Part shown: positions 13,998-64,000 of the stretch, in pieces
Numbering within the stretch: position 1 is the first letter of the stretch
How the letters are laid out: every line of letters begins with the position of its first letter
NCBI GenBank assembly: GCA_964019135.1
Contig: OZ025257.1
Location: 22,428,352 to 22,492,351, forward strand
DNA from: Arenicola marina
Lineage: Eukaryota; Annelida; Polychaeta; Arenicolidae
DNA length: 64,000 nt
Direction of reading: 5' to 3'
Position numbers and translations under genes: made by a program
Notes under the pieces: generated by a model
The model's database searches: none
Seen by the model: only the letters and a program-made list of their open reading frames with translations
Told to the model about the DNA's origin: nothing

Positions 13998-14442
13998 ACA
14001 TGTACACATTTGATATGTATCACATCGTATGATGTAAACACAACATATGATATATAAATACACCACGCTTGTTGTAAGCACGACATTAATGTAGAAATCG
14101 CACGATGTAGACAATATATTTGATATACACAGCACTTGATGTAAACACGACATTTGATATGCACAGCACTTGATGTAAACACGACATTTGTTATGCACAG
14201 CACTTGATGTAAACACGACATTTGATATGCACAGCACTTGATGTAAACACGACATTTGATATGCACAGCACTTGATGTAAACACGACATTTGATATGCAC
14301 AGCACTTGATGTAAAAACGACATTTGATACACACATCGCTTGATGTAAACAGGACAGTTGATATACACATCGCTTGATGTAAACACGATATCTGATATAC
14401 ACATCGCTTGATGTAAACAAGATATCTGATATACACATCACC
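13998..14442. repeat. 34-bp minisatellite, left part (interrupted by the LINE)
   Basis: The tandem unit contains GATGTAAACACGACATTTG and GCACAGCACTT. About twelve copies are present, degenerate at the left and nearly identical at 14130-14330. The array stops at the LINE and resumes at 20210. Long minus-strand open frames here (VYIKCC-type repeats) are a by-product of the repeat. Confidence 0.9.
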
Positions 14443-15381
14443 CTTCTTAAAAACTTTGCCATAAAGCAGGATATTCAGATAAAGGAGCTGAAAGTGGAGT
14501 GTACTGACTTGAAATATAGGTCAATGCGAAACAACATCCTGATCCACAACGTGCCAGAAGACAACGCTGGTCAGCTTTCAGAGCACTGCGAAGGGAAAGT
14601 CATGGAACTGCTCATGAGCAAAGGCTATGATGGGGCACCACACTTTGAGCGCTGCCATAGACTGGGATCGTATAACACCAACAACAAATCCCGTCCAAGG
14701 CCAATCGTGGCGAAACTACTTTCGTACAAGGACATTGAATATATGCTAAAGTTTTCTCGCACACGTCTGCCAAAAGGCAAGGACACACTCAGGATTACCC
14801 CACAATATCCGGTTGAAATCCTAGAGCGTCGCAGGGGGTACGGCGAGAGGGCGCAGGCGGCCAGGGATCTCGCAGCCCCGCAGCGAATACAAACCCGTGT
14901 CACCAATGATGGCTTATATGTCAACAACCAGAAGCAAAGTGATCCCTTACCTGTGAGTTCCGCGAACAACATACTCGCCTTGACCGTCAGAGAGAGGGAC
15001 GATGAGATGCTGGACTCAGAACAATTCACCGTGGGGGAAGTTGCCACATCACTGGGTTCGAAGGCATGCGCAACAATTATCAAAGCCCAGACCCTTAAGG
15101 ACGTCCGAACAGCGTACCGGCGCCTACTGATGGACCCTGTGAGGGCCGGAGCCAGACACAACATCGCTGCGTATCGCCTCTCGGACAACCAAGAAGGCTG
15201 GCAGGACGACGGGGATTTTGGCGCCGGACGACATGTCCGCTACCTCTTGAGGCGACACAATCTGACCAACGCCGTTGTCGTCATCACCAAACGCTACGCG
15301 AGCCGATTACCCGGAAGTGAGAGATTCAAACTTCTGGAATCGGCCTTGACAACCGCGCTACGTAAGTTCCAGACTACATGA
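14443..15381 (+). CDS. LINE ORF1 (RRM-type RNA-binding protein with C-terminal IMPACT/YigZ-like domain), 5'-truncated
   Basis: The frame is open from the insertion junction, and no ATG is available before the conserved region. In order it shows the end of a coiled coil (QDIQIKELKVEC), then an L1-ORF1-like RRM segment (RNNILIHNVPED, HRLG, RPRPIVAKLL) over about residues 13-100 counted from the GTG at 14494. Next is a basic helix region (ERRRGYGERAQAARDL). The last 110 residues (about 180-293) resemble the IMPACT N-terminal/YigZ fold: AGARHNIAAYRL, then QDDGDFGAGRHVRYLL, then NAVVVITKRY and SERFKLLESAL, against A-HN-AYR, DDGE-AG, VVVSRWYGG and DRFKHI in IMPACT. ORF1 proteins normally bind LINE RNA as trimers. 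The role of the added domain is unknown. Codon use is more GC-rich than ORF2. Confidence 0.8.
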   Translation, partial: LLKNFAIKQDIQIKELKVECTDLKYRSMRNNILIHNVPEDNAGQLSEHCEGKVMELLMSKGYDGAPHFERCHRLGSYNTNNKSRPRPIVAKLLSYKDIEYMLKFSRTRLPKGKDTLRITPQYPVEILERRRGYGERAQAARDLAAPQRIQTRVTNDGLYVNNQKQSDPLPVSSANNILALTVRERDDEMLDSEQFTVGEVATSLGSKACATIIKAQTLKDVRTAYRRLLMDPVRAGARHNIAAYRLSDNQEGWQDDGDFGAGRHVRYLLRRHNLTNAVVVITKRYASRLPGSERFKLLESALTTALRKFQTT

Positions 15382-16664
15382 GCTCTCTTCATCGTACAAG
15401 AACAACAATGGCCTGATTAACAGCCAGGACCGGGTTCAATTAGCCAGGTGTGTAGCATCTTACCGGCGGTATGGGTCCACGGAATAATGGCATCCTATTA
15501 TGGCTTGTAAAACAAACATATAAATAGGCCAAGGGGCATGTTAATGTTGATGTACGGCAAGTGTATTGACAATTGCACGACCCTCTCCCCACCCCCCTCC
15601 CCATCCACTTTCTGTTGTGCACGGTTCAGTGGTAATGAAGCTGGTGAAACAATAAGAGTGGTTCTAGGTAAAGAGTGCATATTAATTGTTGCTCAGAGAA
15701 CGTTCTGTTATTATTGATATCGAGAACATGTATACTTTGCATCCATCCATGCCTGCTTTCATGCATTGCCTGTAGTTTATTTTTGGAGGAGTCGATCTGA
15801 GAAACGTAATTGCAATTACAAGAGGTGTTAATCTGGTTCTCAGGACCACAACTGAAATCTGCGACATGCACTCGATTTCTCAGCATATGTTAAGACCCTA
15901 TCTGCTCACGTTATATCCGCTCAAGCAGCTTGCCTTCGCTTAACATGTCAGTGCTTACTATAGGCCGTTGCTGGGAGCGATATTGGCGGGACAATAGTTT
16001 GTCCTTTCTTTAACAAGTTTGTACCCTATCGGCACCGGGAACTATTGAGTCGATCACACTGTGTTGGTCGCTATATTAGCGCTACTGTTTAACTCCAAGC
16101 ATTGTGAATAGCAAGGCTTGTTCCATTCTTTACTCTTTACTCCATCGTAGTACCTTCCTACCCCTATACTGTCTCATAACTTCGCCCTACACCTGAATTC
16201 CTCCCTCCCGAAGGAGTCCTCTCCACCCGCTAGAGAGAGGAGTCCTAGTCAACTGCCCACGTGGCACTGCCTCCAGAGTCCCTAGGGTTTTTATCCGGGT
16301 CACTGAGGCCGTGTGACGAAGTGGGTGGTTGGCCAGGCGTCGGCTAATATTAGCGGCGTCGAAGCGTAGAGGGAGATGAACATAACAATTTACTACAGTC
16401 TGCTGTTTTTTATTCCTTAAGCTATTGCCGGCGATTAGTCAATGCATAGCAATCGGTTTCTTCCCATTGTAATTTGTAATATATAAATATGTCGTCACTC
16501 TCGATATTCGTCATTGTGCTACCCTGATGTGCCACCAGTGTTAGCTCACGTAATGAACCATGACAGAACTGTTTGTATAAAAGTTTGGTTCAATGTTTTT
16601 GTTCGTTCGATGTTCAAGTTTGCGGAGATTCATGTTGATATAGCATCTGGTTTATGCATAGAAC
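15382..16664 (+). other. LINE region between ORF1 and ORF2
   Basis: This spacer of about 1.28 kb has no long open frame and no recognised motif. It is long for the inter-ORF gap of a single element. It could include the 3' UTR of one element and the 5' UTR of another if two LINEs are nested. Confidence 0.4.
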
Positions 16665-19496
16665 ATGGGTAACAATATAGATGATGACATCTTAAAACAT
16701 ATTGGGGGCCTAAATTTTAATTCATTAAATGAGACGTTACAACAGAAATATTATGACAATGTTGCCAATGCTTGTACGGATGAAATTACTATTGAGCACT
16801 CACCTTATTGTGAAGTGGAACAGTTTATTAATGTTATTGAACGTCACCGACACAAGTTTACTATACTCAGCTTAAATATTGCCTCAATTCGTTCCAAGAT
16901 TGACCAACTGAAAGTGTTTCTAAGTGTTTTACATGCTGGTAATGTGGTGTTAAGTGCAATATGTTTACAGGAAACCTGGTTATCCGATAATGATGATGTC
17001 GGTCTGTATGAACTCGAGGATTATGTATTAATATCCCAGGGTAAATACTGTAGCGCGCGTGGAGGCCTGTTGATATATCTCCATAAATCATATGGGTTTA
17101 CTTGCATAGAAAACCCGGTCAAATCTGACATTTGGGAAGCGCAATTTATTGAAGTGTTTGGACGGCCCACTGACAGAAAAATGTTGCTAGGTAATATATA
17201 TCGACCTCCATGTGACATAAACGAAAATTATGCGACGTTTTCTCAAGAATTATCTGAGGTTATACTTTCATTTGAAGGGAGTAAACCACATAGGGAATGT
17301 ATCCTAGCAGGTGATTTTAATATAGACCTTTTAAAGATTTGCGAAAAACCAGCCATTAGCGACTACTTCGACACCATTGTAGCTTGCAGTTTTCTTCCAA
17401 AAATTACTTTGCCGACTAGACTGTCGCGTCATAGGGGTACGCTAATTGATAATTTTCTGTGTAAGTTAACATCCAGTTCACTGAATACAACAGCTGGAAT
17501 TATATTGAAGGCTATCTCAGACCATCTCCCGTATTACTTATCTCTAGACATTGATATGCGACGTACAAACAAAGCGCCCGCATATATTACCATAAATACC
17601 AATGATCCACAATCAGTAGAAAACTTCAAAAAGCATATTGCCAACGCAGACGTACTAGGTAAACTCGACATAGACCCATGTGCTGATCCTAACAGTAACT
17701 ATAAGATACTCGAGGATATAATTACACATGCCAGGGATGTATTTTTACCAAGCAAAACAGTAAAATTTAACAAGAGAAAGCACAAAAAGGCAAACTGGAT
17801 CACCAATGGTATTATTAAGTCCATAGCATTTAAAGACAAACTTTATAAAAAGCTTAAAATGACGGAACCAAATTCTCGTCAATACGACATCCTAAGGACC
17901 AACCTGAGAACCTATGAAAATATTTTAAAGAACAGTATTCGGGTAGCAAAAAGATTGTATTATTCCAATGCTTTTGAGAAATGTAAAGGTGACCTAAAGG
18001 AAACCTGGAAAGCAATAAAATCCGTTATTCATAAATCAAAGAGAAAGGACAAATTTCCTGAAGTATTTAACATTAATGGCAAAATGACTTCCGATCGACC
18101 GGCTATAGCTAATGGCTTCAATGATTTTTTCAGCACTATCGGAGCAAAACTTGCTAGCAAAATCCTCCCAGATCCCAGCCAAACTTACGCCAGCTTTCTT
18201 GGGGACCCTTGTGATACAAAGATGGAGTTTCACTTAATTAACCACACTGTCACGGAAAAAATAATCGATCAGCTTAAACCAAAAATTAGTTCTGGGCATG
18301 ATAAGATGTCCATGAAAACACTGAAGCTATTGAAAGTAGAATTGAGCAAAGCAATTACTCACATAATTAACCAATCTATTACAACGGGCACTTTTCCAGA
18401 TAAATTGAAGCTTGCTAAAGTAGTACCAGTGTTCAAGAAGGGTGAAAAGTCTAACGTCGATAACTATAGGCCAATATCAATTTTACCAGCTTTATCTAAA
18501 GTTTTTGAAAGAGTAATTTATGATCAGATGTATGAACATTTTGATCACGAGAAACTGTTTAACAGCGGTCAGTATGGTTTTCGGAAAAAACATTCCACTC
18601 AACTTGCAACATTGGAATTAATAGATAGAACAATACAAAAACTGGACGAAGGCCAGATCCCAATAAGTATATTCCTAGATTTGTCAAAGGCCTTTGACAC
18701 CATTAACCATGATATACTGTTATTTAAACTAAAACACTATGGGGTGTGTGGGGCTGCGCTTAGTTTAATAACCAATTATCTTCATAACCGAAAACAGTAC
18801 GTAAGCCTAGATAATGATATATCAGAAGAAACCCCCGTTTCCCGAGGGGTTCCACAGGGATCCATACTTGGCCCATTACTTTTTATAATCTATATAAACG
18901 ACATATCTAGGGCGAGTGCGATATTTAGTGCAATTATATATGCTGATGATACAACCCTTTCCAGCACACTTAGCGCTTGCGCCTCCAAGACTAACATACA
19001 ACGTAGTGCTGATATACTGAACAATGAACTGTCTTTGGTAAATAATTGGCTTAAACTAAACCAACTATCTCTTAACATCACAAAAACCAAGTTTATGATT
19101 TTCTATATGCCGCAAAAACGAGTAATAATGCCAGAACTCTATATTGACCATACCAAGCTAGAATGTGTTGATCAATTTGATTTCCTTGGACTGACCATAC
19201 AGAAAAATCTGAAATGGTCCAGTCATAGCGATAAAATTGCTTTCAAGATATCTAAAGTGGTTGGAATCATGCAGCAACTAAAATACGTCCTTCCTCAGAA
19301 CATTCTCCTGACTATATACAACTCACTAATACTATCACATTTTCACTATTGTATACTAGCCTGGGGGTACCAAAGTAATCGACTGAAAAACATCCAGAAG
19401 AAAGCTGTACGTATCATTACAAGGAGTAATTACATGGCCCACACCGACCGCTTATTTAAACATCTGAATGTCCTTAAAATCGACGACAGGCGCTAA
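16665..19496 (+). CDS. LINE ORF2: AP-type endonuclease and reverse transcriptase
   Basis: The ORF has 943 codons from the ATG at 16665. The endonuclease covers about residues 65-295, with QETWL (Glu103), GDFNID (Asp217) and SDHLP (Asp286, His287). The reverse transcriptase covers about 520-850, with NYRPISILP, QYGFRKKHST, FLDLSKAFD (Asp672), RGVPQGSILGPLLF and YADD (759-762), so the catalytic residues are present. It ends early at a TAA at 19494. The expected C-terminal extension continues in the frame starting at 19493, showing a single frameshift. It would nick the target DNA and copy the element RNA by target-primed reverse transcription. The frame is otherwise open, suggesting a fairly young insertion. 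Confidence 0.93.
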   Translation: MGNNIDDDILKHIGGLNFNSLNETLQQKYYDNVANACTDEITIEHSPYCEVEQFINVIERHRHKFTILSLNIASIRSKIDQLKVFLSVLHAGNVVLSAICLQETWLSDNDDVGLYELEDYVLISQGKYCSARGGLLIYLHKSYGFTCIENPVKSDIWEAQFIEVFGRPTDRKMLLGNIYRPPCDINENYATFSQELSEVILSFEGSKPHRECILAGDFNIDLLKICEKPAISDYFDTIVACSFLPKITLPTRLSRHRGTLIDNFLCKLTSSSLNTTAGIILKAISDHLPYYLSLDIDMRRTNKAPAYITINTNDPQSVENFKKHIANADVLGKLDIDPCADPNSNYKILEDIITHARDVFLPSKTVKFNKRKHKKANWITNGIIKSIAFKDKLYKKLKMTEPNSRQYDILRTNLRTYENILKNSIRVAKRLYYSNAFEKCKGDLKETWKAIKSVIHKSKRKDKFPEVFNINGKMTSDRPAIANGFNDFFSTIGAKLASKILPDPSQTYASFLGDPCDTKMEFHLINHTVTEKIIDQLKPKISSGHDKMSMKTLKLLKVELSKAITHIINQSITTGTFPDKLKLAKVVPVFKKGEKSNVDNYRPISILPALSKVFERVIYDQMYEHFDHEKLFNSGQYGFRKKHSTQLATLELIDRTIQKLDEGQIPISIFLDLSKAFDTINHDILLFKLKHYGVCGAALSLITNYLHNRKQYVSLDNDISEETPVSRGVPQGSILGPLLFIIYINDISRASAIFSAIIYADDTTLSSTLSACASKTNIQRSADILNNELSLVNNWLKLNQLSLNITKTKFMIFYMPQKRVIMPELYIDHTKLECVDQFDFLGLTIQKNLKWSSHSDKIAFKISKVVGIMQQLKYVLPQNILLTIYNSLILSHFHYCILAWGYQSNRLKNIQKKAVRIITRSNYMAHTDRLFKHLNVLKIDDRR

Positions 19497-19828
19497 AGTT
19501 TTATTACAGGTTAAAGCATAATGATCTCCCCGCATACTTTCTGAATACATTCGACTTACCTCGAATACTTGACAGACATAACTACAACACTAGACAAAAA
19601 TACAATACTATTATCCCTAGAACAAAACACAAGTTTGCAGAAAGTTGCATTAGATATTATCTTACGCATTTAATAAACGAATTACCTCAAGACATAATCA
19701 CGAAGATTTTTACTCATAGCCAAGCCGGATATACCCGATATACCCGACATATCAAACAGAGATTTATAGACTCGTATAGAATTGACTGCTTAATAGTAAA
19801 TTGTTATGTGTGTCAACTCAATTACTAA
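19493..19828 (+). pseudogene. Frameshifted C-terminal end of LINE ORF2
   Basis: The reading frame shifted by one base continues the family's typical end: LKFYYRLKHNDLPAYF, YNTRQ and LINELP motifs, then a TAA stop at 19826-19828. A single base loss near 19491 (or an insertion of two) explains the premature stop of the upstream ORF. Confidence 0.8.
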
Positions 19829-20210
19829 TTATTTTGCCATACATACATGTATATTGGTTCTTTCGGTATCTCATGTTCCTTAGGCCCCAAAACGTTGATG
19901 ATCGTGCATATACTTAATAATTTTAATGTATTGATAACGATGATGTTTCTCGCTTTTTTATTTATTTATTTTTTTTTTAATTTTGCCTGTTTCTTTAATT
20001 GTTTTTAACGACATCAAGTTAGATACATTTATTCTTGTTGATTGTCTCGCTTTGTTTTTTGTTTTTTTTGCCAAGGTGGACTCCATGCTAGCGACCACAG
20101 GTCATAATGGAGGTCTCCTGGACCAGTCACCACTTCACCATGCATATCTAGCACATTGTTTGTATTCTTACTGTGTTCTGGTCTGAATAAACGATTATTC
20201 TTCTTCTTCT
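19829..20210 (+). other. LINE 3' UTR and tail
   Basis: This region is AT-rich with T-runs. It contains a GC-richer block (GGACCAGTCACCACTTCACC) and ends TCTGAATAAACGATTATTC followed by TTC repeats. AATAAA at 20186 could serve as a poly(A) signal. Confidence 0.7.
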
Positions 20211-22849: not shown

Positions 22850-23475
22850 ACCAAGTATGGTTCACACACCAAGTGTGGTTCACCCACCAAGTATGGTTCA
22901 CCCACCAAGTATGGTTCACCCACCAAGTATGGTTCACCCACCAAGTATGGTTCACCCACCAAGTATGGTTCACACACCAAGTATGGTATGGTTCACCTAC
23001 CAAGTGTGGTTCACCCACCAAGTATGGTTCACTCACCAAGTATGGTTCACCCACCAAGTATGGTTCACCCACCAAGTATGGTTCACCCACCAAGTATGGT
23101 TCACCCACCAAGTATGGTTCACACACCAAGTATGGTATGGTTCACCCACCAAGTATGGTTCACCCACCAAGTATGGTTCGCCCACCAAGTATGGTTCACC
23201 CACTAAGTATGGTTCACCCACCAAGTATGGTTCACCCACCAAGTATCGTTCACCCACTAAGAATGATTCACCCACCAAGTATCGTTCACCCAACAAGTAT
23301 GGTTCACCCACCAAGGATGGTTCACCCACCAAGTATGGTTCACCCACCAAGTATGGTTCACCCACCAAGTATCGTTCGCCCACCAAGTATGGTTCACCGA
23401 CCAAGTATGGTTCACCCACCAAGTATGGTTCACCCAACAAGTATCGTTCACCCACTAAGAATGATTTAACTACCA
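22850..23475. repeat. 18-bp minisatellite (about 34 copies)
   Basis: The unit CAAGTATGGTTCACCCAC is repeated with few variants. Because 18 is a multiple of three, most frames on both strands stay open (PSMVHP, TKYGSP, VWFTHQ, VGEPYL), and none is likely to be a gene. Confidence 0.95.
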
Positions 23476-23524
23476 AGTATGGTTCCCTAAACTCGACGAG
23501 CACCCTTATCTCTTGCCACATTAC

Positions 23525-33735: not shown

Positions 33736-34016
33736 TTCCAATGAATGATTTGGTGTTTTATACCACTTACCTCCACACATGGGTTAAGAGCGGTCGATGG
33801 ACCAATGGCGGAGAGGTAATGAAACCCGAGTGATTTATTGGGTCATGGTTGTCACCGTTTATTGGCCTATGCAAATGGTATCACTGGAAACGCCAGGCAC
33901 ACATGGCGTCATGACGACTAATAGCATTATCGGGTTAAGAAATATACCGACTGGCGATATTAGTAGTCTGAAGGCGGCTTAGTCCGACCAGCCACCACGT
34001 CACCTGATCGACCACG

Positions 34017-35150
34017 GTGCCTATGTCCGTCCACAGTGTCTATGTCCGACCTATGTGCCTATGTCCGACCACAGTGCCTATGTCCGACCTATGTGTCTAT
34101 GTCCGACCACGGTGTCTATGTCTGACCTATGTGTCTATGTCCGACCACAGTGCCTATGTCCGACCTATGTGTCTATGTCCGACCACAGTGCCTATGTCCG
34201 ACCTATGTGTCTATGTCCGACCACGGTGCCTATGTCCGACCTATGTGTCTATGTCCGACCACGGTGTCTATGTCCGACCACGGTGTCTATGTCCGACCAC
34301 CGTGTCTATGTCCGACCTATGTGCCTATGTCCCACCACGGTGTCTATGTCGGACCACGGTACCTATGTCCGACCTATGTGTCTATCTCCCACCACGGTGT
34401 CTATGTCCGACCACGGTGTCTATGTCCGACCACCGTGTCTATGTCCGACCACGGTGTCTATGTCCGACCACGGTGCCTATGTCCGACCTATGTGTCTATC
34501 TCCCACCACGGTGTCTATGTCCGACCACGGTGCCTATGTCCGACCTATGTGTCTATGTCCCACCACGGTGTCTATGTCCGACCACGGTGCCTATGTCCGA
34601 CCACCGTGCCTATGTCCGACCACGGTGCCTATGGCCGACCACGGTGCCTATGTGCGACGACGGTGCTTATGTCCGACCATGGTGTCTGAGTCCGACCTAT
34701 GTGTCTGTCCCACCACGGTGTCTATGTCTGACCACGGTGCCTATGTCCGACCTATGTGTCTATGTCCGACCACGGTGCCTATGTCCGAACTATGTGTCTA
34801 TGTCCCACCACGGTGTCTATGTCCCACCACGGTGCCTATGTCCGACCTATGTGTCTATGTCACACCACGGTGTCTATGTCCGACCACGGTGCCTATGTCC
34901 GAACTATGTGTCTATGTCCCACCACGATGTCTATGTCCCACCACGGTGCCTATGTCCGACCTATGTGCCTATGTCCGACCACGATGCCTATGTCCGACCA
35001 CGAAGCCTATGTCCGATCATGGTGTCTATGACCGATCACCGTGTGTATGGTCTAACTTGGGTGTCCAAGTCAGAACTATATGTCTATATCCGACCACTGT
35101 GCCTAAGTCCGACCGCGGTGGCTATGTGTGACCTGGGCGTCCAAATTCGA
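34017..35150. repeat. 19-bp minisatellite (about 58 copies, two alternating variants)
   Basis: The units are CTATGTCCGACCACGGTGT and CTATGTCCGACCTATGTGT, differing mainly in the last seven bases. They are interspersed and degrade to the right. Because 19 is not a multiple of three, all three plus frames stay open across the array. The 412- and 358-codon frames are repeat by-products. Confidence 0.95.
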
Positions 35151-46317: not shown

Positions 46318-48265
46318 AGCCCAATTCCACACGATTCCACCCCCATTCCACCCCCATTCCATCCCCATTCCACCCCCATTCCACCCCCATTCCACCCCCA
46401 TTCCACCCCCATTCCACCCAATTCAAATACACTCTACCCCTTTCTATCGCCATTTCACCTTCATTCCACCCCTTTTTACCACCATTGCATTCTCATTCCA
46501 CCCTGTCTACCACGATTTAACCCTCATTCCTCCCCAGTCCATTTACCCTCATTCCCCCAGTCCATTCTACACCATTCCATCCCAGTCCATTCCAATCTCA
46601 TTCCCCCCAGTCCATTCCGATCTCATTCCCCCCAGTCCATTCCAATCTCATTCCCCCTCAGTCCATTCTACACCATTCCATCCCAGTCTATTCTACACCA
46701 TTTCCCCCAGTCCATTCTACCCTCATTCCCCCCAGTCCATTCTACACCATCCCCCCCAGTCCATTCTACACCATTCCCCCCAGTCCATTCTACCCTCATT
46801 CCATCCCAGTCCATTCCAATGTCATTTCCACCAGTCCATTCTACCCTCATTCCATCCCAGTCCGTTCTACCCTCATTCCCCCCAGTCCATTCTACACCAT
46901 TTCCCCCAGTCCATTCTACACCATTCCCCCCAGTCCATTCTACACCATTCCCCCCAGTCCATTCTACACCATTCCCCCCAGTCCATTCTACACCATTCCC
47001 CCCAGTCCATTCTACACCATTTCCCCCAGTCCATTCTACACCATTCCCCCCAGTCCATTCTACACCATTCCCCCCAGTCCATTCTACACCATTCCCCCCA
47101 GTCCATTCTACACCATTCCCCCCAGTCCATTCTACACCATTCCCCCCAGTCCATTCTACACCATTCCCCCCAGTCCATTCTACACCATTCCCCCCAGTCC
47201 ATTCTACACCATTCCCCCCAGTCCATTCTACCCTCATTCCATCCCAGTCCATTCCAATGTCATTTCCACCAGTCCATTCTACCCTCATTCCATCCCAGTC
47301 CGTTCTACCCTCATTCCCCCCAGTCCATTCTACACCATTCCCCCCAGTCCATTCTACCCTCATTCCATCCCAGTCCATTCCAATGTCATTTCCACCAGTC
47401 CATTCTACCCTCATTCCATCCCAGTCCATTCCAATGTCATTTCCACCAGTCCATTCTACCTTCATGCCATCCCAGTCCGTTCTACCCTCATTCCCCCCAG
47501 TCCATTCTACACCATCCCCCCCAGTCCATTCTACACCATTCCCCCCAGTCCATTCTACCCTCATTCCATCCCAGTCCATTCCAATGTCATTTCCACCAGT
47601 CCATTCTACCCTCATTCCATCCCAGTCCGTTCTACCCTCATTCCCCCCAGTCCATTCTACACCATTTCCCCCAGTCCATTCTACACCATTCCCCCCAGTC
47701 CATTCTACACCATTCCCCCCAGTCCATTCTACACCATTCCCCCCAGTCCATTCTACACCATTCCCCCCAGTCCATTCTACACCATTTCCCCCAGTCCATT
47801 CTACACCATTCCCCCCAGTCCATTCTACACCATTCCCCCCAGTCCATTCTACACCATTCCCCCCAGTCCATTCTACACCATTCCCCCCAGTCCATTCTAC
47901 ACCATTCCCCCCAGTCCATTCTACACCATTCCCCCCAGTCCATTCTACACCATTCCCCCCAGTCCATTCTACACCATTCCCCCCAGTCCATTCTACCCTC
48001 ATTCCATCCCAGTCCATTCCAATGTCATTTCCACCAGTCCATTCTACCCTCATTCCATCCCAGTCCGTTCTACCCTCATTCCCCCCAGTCCATTCTACAC
48101 CATTCCCCCCAGTCCATTCTACCCTCATTCCATCCCAGTCCATTCCAATGTCATTTCCACCAGTCCATTCTACCCTCATTCCATCCCAGTCCATTCCAAT
48201 GTCATTTCCACCAGTCCATTCTACCTTCATGCCATCCCAGTCCGTTCTACCCTCATTCCACCCCA
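46318..48265. repeat. 24-bp minisatellite with a 765-bp higher-order repeat
   Basis: The array begins with an 11-bp CCATTCCACCC-like run (46320-46430). It then becomes 24-bp units (CCATTCTACACCATTCCCCC plus CAGT) and variants. Two consecutive 765-bp blocks (about 46729-47493 and 47494-48258) are nearly identical, including variant order. Open frames of 724, 520 and 505 codons are repeat by-products. Confidence 0.95.
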
Positions 48266-48384
48266 GTCCATCCTACCCCATTAGACCACCATACCACTCC
48301 CCTCCTATCCCTATTTCAGCCACAATTTATCCGTGACGCATTACGTGACGTGTACTCTGGCCTCCAAGCAGATATCAGCCTCCA

Positions 48385-62895: not shown

Positions 62896-63514
62896 GGTTT
62901 AAATCTGAATTTGAATCTAAACTTGATGTGTTTAGGTGACAATAATAAGTTATTTGTATTAACCCCCAGATGAATATTACTGTTAATTTCCACGCCAGGA
63001 ACTCCGTAGAGAAAGTAACGAGCTCATCAAGATGACTTCGCACCGCGTGACTGGACAGCTATTTAAGGTATCAGTGACGCAATCTTCGGCGTCCGCATGG
63101 GTAGTTAGGGGAAATGCGGCGTCAACGCTTTTCCTTAGGGGAGATTAGACGCTAACACCTGGGATGGTAACCAGTGGAGGCAGGACAAATAAGCCGTAAA
63201 GGCTACTTATGTGTGAGGGACATACTGGCATCAAACAAACTACAATCCCGAAGGGGATTCTGTCACATACATGTCTTCATCTTTTTTGTTTTGTTTTTTT
63301 GTTTTTTTGTTTTTTCCCACCCCTTTCCCCATCAAAAAGGAGACCCGCACCTCTTTGTCAGCTGGCTTTCATTTCTTGGAACAAGCTGCTCGCATCGCGC
63401 TGTTGCTTTGTTCTCATATTTTTATCCTATTATTAGAATTTTTGCTCTCATGTTCTAATCTCGTTTTAGACTGCCTTTAATGCTTGGTAAAGCTGTGGCG
63501 TACTTGCTATCGTT
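62896..63514. other. Unassigned DNA
   Basis: A T-rich run with GTTTTTTTG repeats lies at 63283-63316. No exon was recognised. Confidence 0.5.
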
Positions 63515-64000
63515 GTTCTCACCTTGGTGTAGACGTGTTCTCATCTCGGTGTAGACGTGTTCTCTCCTCGGTGTAGACGTGTTCTCTCCTCGGTGTAGAC
63601 GTGTTGTCACCTCGGTGTAGACGTGTTCTTACCTCGGTATAGACGTGTTGTCACATCAGTGTAGACGTGTTCTCATCTCGGCGTAGACGTGTTGTCACCT
63701 CGGTGTAGACGTGTTGTCACCTCGGTGTATACGTGTTCTTACCTCGGTATAGACGTGTTGTCACATCAGTGTAGACGTGTTCTCATCTCGGTGTAGACGT
63801 GTTGTCACATCAGTGTAGACGTGTTCTCATCTCGGTGTAGAGGTGTTCTCTCCTCGGTGTAGACGTGTTGTCACCTCGGTGTAGACGTGTTCTCATCTCG
63901 GTGTAGACGTGTTCTAACCTCGGTGTAGACGTGTTGTCACATCAGTGTAGACGTGTTCTCATCTCGGTGTAGACGTGTTGTCACATCAGTGTAGACGTGT
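63515..64000. repeat. 22-bp minisatellite running off the right edge
   Basis: About 22 copies of TCGGTGTAGACGTGTTCTCA plus CC are present. A second variant has TTGTCACATCAG in place of TTCTCACCTCGG. The two variants recur in a partly regular order. Confidence 0.95.

Follow-up and report, generated by a model that had tools for sequence, protein, structure and literature searches.

A LINE of Arenicola marina carries at the C-terminus of its first open reading frame (ORF1) what is, judging by profile comparisons, almost certainly a real UPF0029/IMPACT-type domain. The copy in question lies in the window, i.e., the whole stretch of 64,000 nucleotides analysed here (contig OZ025257.1, positions 22,428,352 to 22,492,351), and is a non-LTR retrotransposon by its ORF2 with endonuclease and reverse transcriptase (RT), its 5' truncation and its short 3' repeat tail. 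The best explanation overall, which we consider somewhat probable from the sequences compared, is a LINE family with a UPF0029-bearing ORF1 in which the domain would act as an accessory RNA-binding module.

The Element and Its Boundaries

The minisatellite array on the left of the element ends at 14441 and, by eye, a unit-like stretch resumes in phase on the 3' side, after (TTC)4 near 20209, so that the intervening block most likely came as one insertion (Table 1). Two copies at other loci, with different flanks, are 98.8-98.9% identical to that of the window over 5.8 kb. These two are longer, align mutually over 6.25 kb (99.0%) and share both ends, which shows that the window copy has lost its 5' end; its truncation point is at about 14442, within the 34-bp minisatellite. 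Its ORF1 is incomplete; in full copies (L009 and L010), ORF1 starts with MGK and has 439 aa. The spacer between ORF1 and ORF2 is about 99% identical among L009, L010 and the window, and has been found whole, at 98-100%, in 18 places. In the window, ORF2 matches the Pfam models RVT_1 (E=1.2e-34) and Exo_endo_phos (2.1e-7) and ends about 110 codons short of the 1,056-codon frame present in L009. The (TTC)n repeat closes the element in the window and in L009, L010 having just one TTC there, and no target-site duplication was evident by eye in the flanks of these three copies.

Table 1. Features of the element and its left flank (positions in the window)
Feature	Position	Strand	Evidence or detail
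34-bp minisatellite, left flank and insertion site of the element	14104..14441	.	Tandem Repeats Finder, 9.9 copies, 92%
5'-truncated LINE copy: ORF1 fragment, spacer, ORF2, 3' end with TTC repeats	14442..20209	+	
ORF1 without N-terminus: coiled-coil end, L1-like RRM/CTD, UPF0029 domain	14446..15381	+	open frame; stop TGA 15379-15381
L1 ORF1p RRM-like region and CTD start, limits approximate	14527..14875	+	profile vs PDB 2ykp/2yko, E=1.4e-4
UPF0029/IMPACT-type domain	15058..15357	+	Pfam PF01205, E=4.5e-12; family profile vs PDB 6bqi, E=1.4e-8
ORF1-ORF2 spacer, part of the mobile unit	15382..16664	+	1,283 nt, AUG-rich (24 ATG)
ORF2	16665..19496	+	endonuclease ~16866-17525, reverse transcriptase ~18447-19199
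3' end, (TTC)4	20198..20209	+	

The UPF0029 Domain and the Architecture of ORF1

An initial annotation of the window had proposed an IMPACT/YigZ-like domain fused to the C-terminus of a LINE ORF1, on account of four motifs (ARHNIAAYRL, QDDGDFGAGR, VVVITKRY, and SERFKLLESAL). All four are there, in the order stated, and profile searches bear the proposal out. In a Pfam scan of the frame 14467-15381, UPF0029 (PF01205) was the sole family up to E=10, with E=4.5e-12 and 46.4 bits against a cut-off of 27, residues 198-297 being aligned to positions 3-106 of the 107 in the profile; this E-value rules out a chance match of motifs. With a profile of 13 LINE domains, PDB 6bqi ('Protein IMPACT homolog') was the single chain retrieved up to E=1, at E=1.4e-8; the window sequence by itself gave a weaker match to it (E=0.017) and stayed below the cut-off of the NCBIfam YigZ model (E=0.091, 12.2 bits against 168). 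The UPF0029 cut-off was passed by all 21 ORF1s scanned, that of the window and those of 20 other loci (E 1.2e-15 to 1.4e-7 for the 20). Among the latter, L019, L020, L022, L023, and L027 have no MGK/R/N start and their frames were taken from the preceding stop; the C-terminal part of the L022 ORF1 is aberrant.

The LINE domains keep the H...AYR and DDG..G.GR loops, the invariant residues of the 13-row alignment including H44, R50, D61, G62, G65, G67, and R68, and the sequence following DDG is basic (GRHVRYLLRRH). Another motif, GG..LG, which is read off YIH1, host IMPACT and YigZ before the last helix, is missing in the window and in 14 of the 15 aligned LINE rows, and part of the ancestral binding face would thus be gone from the window domain. 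The motif is present in L044 (TGGNTHLGQRRF) and also in L043, of the same subgroup. RWD was matched by neither the window ORF1 (searched up to E=10) nor any of the other 20 (up to E=0.1 or 0.01).

Apparently complete ORF1s are 435-466 aa long and are composed, in this order, of a basic N-terminus, a coiled coil, an L1-like RRM/CTD and UPF0029. The L1-type RRM that had been placed before the domain finds support in the profile of the upstream part, which matched L1 ORF1p (2ykp/2yko) at E=1.4e-4 over the RRM and the start of the CTD; the Pfam L1 ORF1 model gave no match in the window ORF1 or the 20 others. A designed helical barrel outscored L1 ORF1p for the same profile (3.9e-5), but with no single stretch that was significant. 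The heptad pattern of the coiled coil, examined in five copies, was equalled by 107, 7, 25, 4, and 0 of 5000 shuffles. With these predicted parts (coiled coil, RRM, and CTD), ORF1 belongs to type II (L1-like).

Copies in the Genome and Mobility

The fusion is fixed in a large family, a prospect that the initial annotation had raised: all 21 ORF1s exceed the cut-off, 18 copies are whole and near-identical, and ORF1 is co-mobile with ORF2. A search of the 867-Mb genome with the window ORF1 yielded at least 133 matches (133 scored of 1,236 candidates), at 45-100% identity; among those scored, 122 extend to residue 290 or beyond of the 295-aa query and 82 sit in frames of at least 400 codons. The PF01205 search of the same genome yielded at least 150 matches (150 scored of 289 candidates), all 150 passing the cut-off and at least one of them being an exon of host IMPACT. 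Translations were inspected for 20, 6, 8, and 2 loci, each proving to be a LINE ORF1 of the UPF0029 kind or a fragment; in L031, the frame is broken upstream of the domain.

When a 1.9-kb query running from ORF1 through the spacer into ORF2 was searched as DNA, 46 matches were found in the genome. Eighteen, the window included, span the query whole (1-1901) at 98-100%, and 12 further copies at 98-100% have starts scattered at 600-1620 and all end at 1901; the remainder consists of one match that spans 61-1901 at 96% and 15 pieces at 75-91%. The shared end and scattered starts of the 12 copies make up a 5'-truncation ladder, which is a mark of retrotransposition by target-primed reverse transcription, and the near-identity of the copies suggests recent activity of the family. 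At C19 (G000), near-identical copies of the window family, with the same 424-codon frame, stand at 19134873, 19181784, 19228845, and 19307192; spaced about 47, 47, and 78 kb, these four are probably a segmental duplication.

An artefact, with ORF1 and ORF2 as unrelated adjacent repeats or with the domain as an exon that a single copy took from the host, might be read from the length of the spacer and from the approximately 3 kb that separate ORF1 and ORF2 in L022. However, chance neighbourhood is ruled out by the 18 near-identical contiguous copies, by the truncation ladder, and by the full units at two loci that share both ends. Capture by one copy is ruled out as well, by the genome-wide ORF1 and PF01205 matches and the same contiguous copies; moreover, IMPACT of the host is a different gene, made up of several exons. 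The probability left to such an artefact is negligible. Copies of the window-family ORF2 that have no ORF1 were likewise rejected as domain-less elements, since 12 copies are cut off at query positions 600-1620, a few less similar ORF2 copies (e.g., C14:40330718 and C12:13657386) being left aside. No sister element devoid of UPF0029 was identified among 48 scored of 10,354 ORF2 candidates, and the gain of the domain is therefore not polarised by a sister group.

Probable Exchange of ORF1 between ORF2 Lineages

The trees of ORF1 and ORF2 are in strong conflict, from which we infer that the whole ORF1 moved between two ORF2 lineages. In the ORF2 tree, 17 of the 20 rows stand in one lineage against L012, L013, and L026 in the other. 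The ORF1 tree rejects L012, L013, and L026 together (AU p 8e-9), as well as L022, L023, and L024 together (AU 1e-9). In the RT tree, it is the grouping of L026 with L023 and L024 that is rejected (AU 4e-11). All these groups were picked after the trees had been seen. The ORF2 of L026 has at its N-terminus a PHD match under the Pfam cut-off (E=0.0014, 19.0 bits against 24); that of L012 matched another PHD model at 0.06 and that of L013 none, both starting with a Cys-rich stretch. L012 and L013 are 93% identical in the RT and 60% in ORF1. Their DNA is about 91% identical from a point some 135 bp ahead of the first ORF2 ATG onwards, blastn (E 1e-8) showing no match in the spacer before it, and this sharp limit is likely a recombination boundary between ORF1 and ORF2 cassettes. 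A pattern like that of L012/L013 is seen in L022, but its spacer is of 3 kb and this locus may be compound.

The two halves of ORF1, on the other hand, share their history, since the identities of the ORF1 core and of UPF0029 correlate with each other (Spearman rho 0.77) and neither does with those of the RT (0.20 and 0.12; 66 pairs among 12 copies, with L022 and near-duplicates omitted). A reticulate evolution of ORF1 has been described in the available part of PMC4120745, and the exchange seen here fits it. Regarding the spacers, comparison between subfamilies by blastn gave short matches near ORF2 only, and near copies are about 99% alike.

Origin of the Domain

The LINE domains suggest one old acquisition from an IMPACT-type gene. 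In the domain tree, 15 of them group together in a single long-stemmed clade (97/99), apart from three non-LINE sequences, which are few and one of which, YigZ, is a very long branch (program warning). The three are host IMPACT (three exons joined), the PDB IMPACT homolog and E. coli YigZ; near-duplicates (L010, L016, L017, L018, L020, and L024) and the damaged L022 were omitted, and L044 was added. The LINE domains have no counterpart of the insert of two residues that follows DDG in YigZ, and the L044-type subgroup keeps GGNTHLGQRRF, close to GGIHLGPDRF in host IMPACT. L044 and L043 form a divergent ORF1 subgroup whose UPF0029 domain is nearer cellular IMPACT.

The host IMPACT gene has two more exons, 5.2 and 5.6 kb upstream of the exon that matches PF01205; its DDGE exon matched YIH1 at 7.5e-4, and the other was accepted by eye and by its place, its match being weak (E 0.79). 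A large tandem array, with repeated weak matches 41 bp apart, lies between two exons of this locus (L045). Among prokaryotes, the Pfam UPF0029 family has matches in 10 of 14 control genomes. No close prokaryotic or viral relative appeared in viral contigs or genome contigs scanned with short exact patterns, which distant kin could escape.

Relation to Known Proteins

As in L1 ORF1p (2yko/2ykp), the coiled coil stands before the RRM and the CTD follows it. L1 ORF1p stops after the CTD, whereas here about 110 further residues, those of UPF0029, extend past it. IMPACT/Yih1 (6bqi) and E. coli YigZ share with the LINE domain the H...A(Y/F/W)R and DDG motifs; the LINE domain shares RF(K) with IMPACT and, unlike YigZ, has no insert after DDG. 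It differs from them in being fused to a LINE ORF1, free of RWD and basic after DDG, with GG..LG lost outside the L044-type subgroup.

Among LINEs, the closest likeness is to the type II ORF1 of the CR1/L2 lineage, in which a coiled coil and an L1-like RRM/CTD precede an endonuclease-RT ORF2, some elements have a PHD, and ORF1 has been shuffled among ORF2 lineages (available part of PMC4120745). In the analysis of 448 elements by Metcalfe and Casane (2014), the ORF1 domains listed in Table 1, the part of PMC4120745 relevant here, do not include UPF0029, which is added here at the C-terminus. A precedent is the esterase-type ORF1 of CR1/L2 elements, where another domain occurs in LINE ORF1s of two lineages, although both the domain and the ORF1 type are different (accessible parts of PMC4120745 and PMC3905857). 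The initial annotation knew of no description of the fusion, in agreement with the outcome of our search: among the papers listed from the accessible open-licence literature, no published UPF0029/IMPACT-type domain in a LINE ORF1 was found, papers on UPF0029 were, by title and start of abstract, not about retrotransposons, and UPF0029 is not mentioned in PMC11203168 or PMC10294476 (mollusc/LINE literature).

The fusion is of significance because ORF1 is the less understood LINE protein, and an extra conserved domain with cellular kin offers a natural experiment on the roles of ORF1 other than RNA coating. UPF0029 occurs in prokaryotes and eukaryotes with a biochemical role described as unknown, to which a basic, RWD-less LINE version could point. 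In addition, the conflict of the ORF1 and ORF2 trees and the similarity boundary near ORF2 make a clear case of modular LINE evolution.

Conservation, Charge, and Possible Function

Of 13 pairs compared, 9 gave a finite dN/dS for the UPF0029 part and four were saturated. The finite ratios, 0.074-0.257, are rough since dS is high and near saturation; being well under 1 across the domain, they indicate purifying selection. For the pair of the window and L011, the ratio is 0.037 in the RRM and 0.58 in a 24-codon linker meant as control. The linker gave 0.17-0.31 in the other finite pairs and was no looser than the domain in L012-L013 (0.17 vs 0.26) and L015-L019 (0.22 vs 0.23); finite ratios for the N-terminal tail lie between 0.20 and 1.14. 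In all 21 LINE rows the domain has a positive net charge (+1 to +9), whereas that of the solved IMPACT homolog is -3. Over the 27 residues following DDG, the LINE rows have +2 to +7, compared with three yardstick sequences: 0 in the IMPACT homolog, 0 in host IMPACT and -1 in E. coli YigZ.

This basic character relative to the IMPACT/YigZ yardsticks is the reason why an RNA-binding role is preferred, and we give about an even chance to the UPF0029 domain serving the ORF1 particle as an accessory RNA-binding module. With the H...AYR and DDG..G.GR loops kept and the stretch past DDG turned basic, the basic face of the domain would form a second surface, next to the RRM/CTD, that holds the RNA of the element. 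In the accessible parts of PMC7140605 and PMC4503747, the invariant loops of the ancient domain are reported to cluster on one face; on the other side, its function is described there as unknown and RNA binding is not established in them, and the loss of GG..LG has removed part of the ancestral face. The conservation of the domain shows that it matters whatever its role, and would also suit a module that serves multimerisation or spacing and gives the ORF1 particle its shape, with no nucleic-acid contact of its own. This structural role is nevertheless unlikely, as the loops conserve polar and basic residues (H, DDG, and GR) that point to a binding face.

Alternatively, the domain might take ORF1p to translating ribosomes and aid cis-preference, or an unusual initiation of ORF2 past a spacer of 0.5-1.3 kb. 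IMPACT and Yih1 associate with ribosomes (accessible part of PMC7140605), and the spacers, measured in 15 of the 21 copies, are of 472-1,284 nt and hold 13-39 ATGs, which makes plain scanning to ORF2 unlikely. However, the major ribosome-binding region of Yih1 has been placed around the linker that joins RWD to the ancient domain, and the region sufficient for binding overlaps RWD/linker determinants (available part of PMC4503747), so that a tether of this kind is possible but doubtful. A broader version would have ORF1p act on the translation machinery through the recruited ancient domain, either by helping ribosomes to reach ORF2 over the AUG-rich spacer or by holding the particle on its own ribosome, and would regard the domain as part of a portable cassette taken up repeatedly by ORF2 lineages for that ability; judged from sequence, we find it improbable. 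More specific is the suggestion of the initial annotation that ORF1 blunts a host stress response, i.e., that ORF1p mimics IMPACT and, by interfering with GCN1/GCN2, dampens the eIF2alpha response. The homology of the domain to the C-terminal domain of IMPACT speaks for it, but IMPACT and Yih1 inhibit GCN2 through RWD, which competes for Gcn1 (accessible parts of PMC7140605 and PMC4503747), and that Gcn1-binding part was not found in any of the 21 ORF1s scanned; the loss of GG..LG in the aligned rows except L044 also tells against it. The suggestion is thus not supported, and interference with the stress response is very unlikely.

Other Repeats in the Window

No Rfam family reached its gathering score in the window. 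More minisatellite arrays are present at 22850-23485, 34009-35127, 46525-48282, and 63514-64000. The first of them, an 18-bp array, contains long open frames on both strands which, by the evidence of the array, are not genes.
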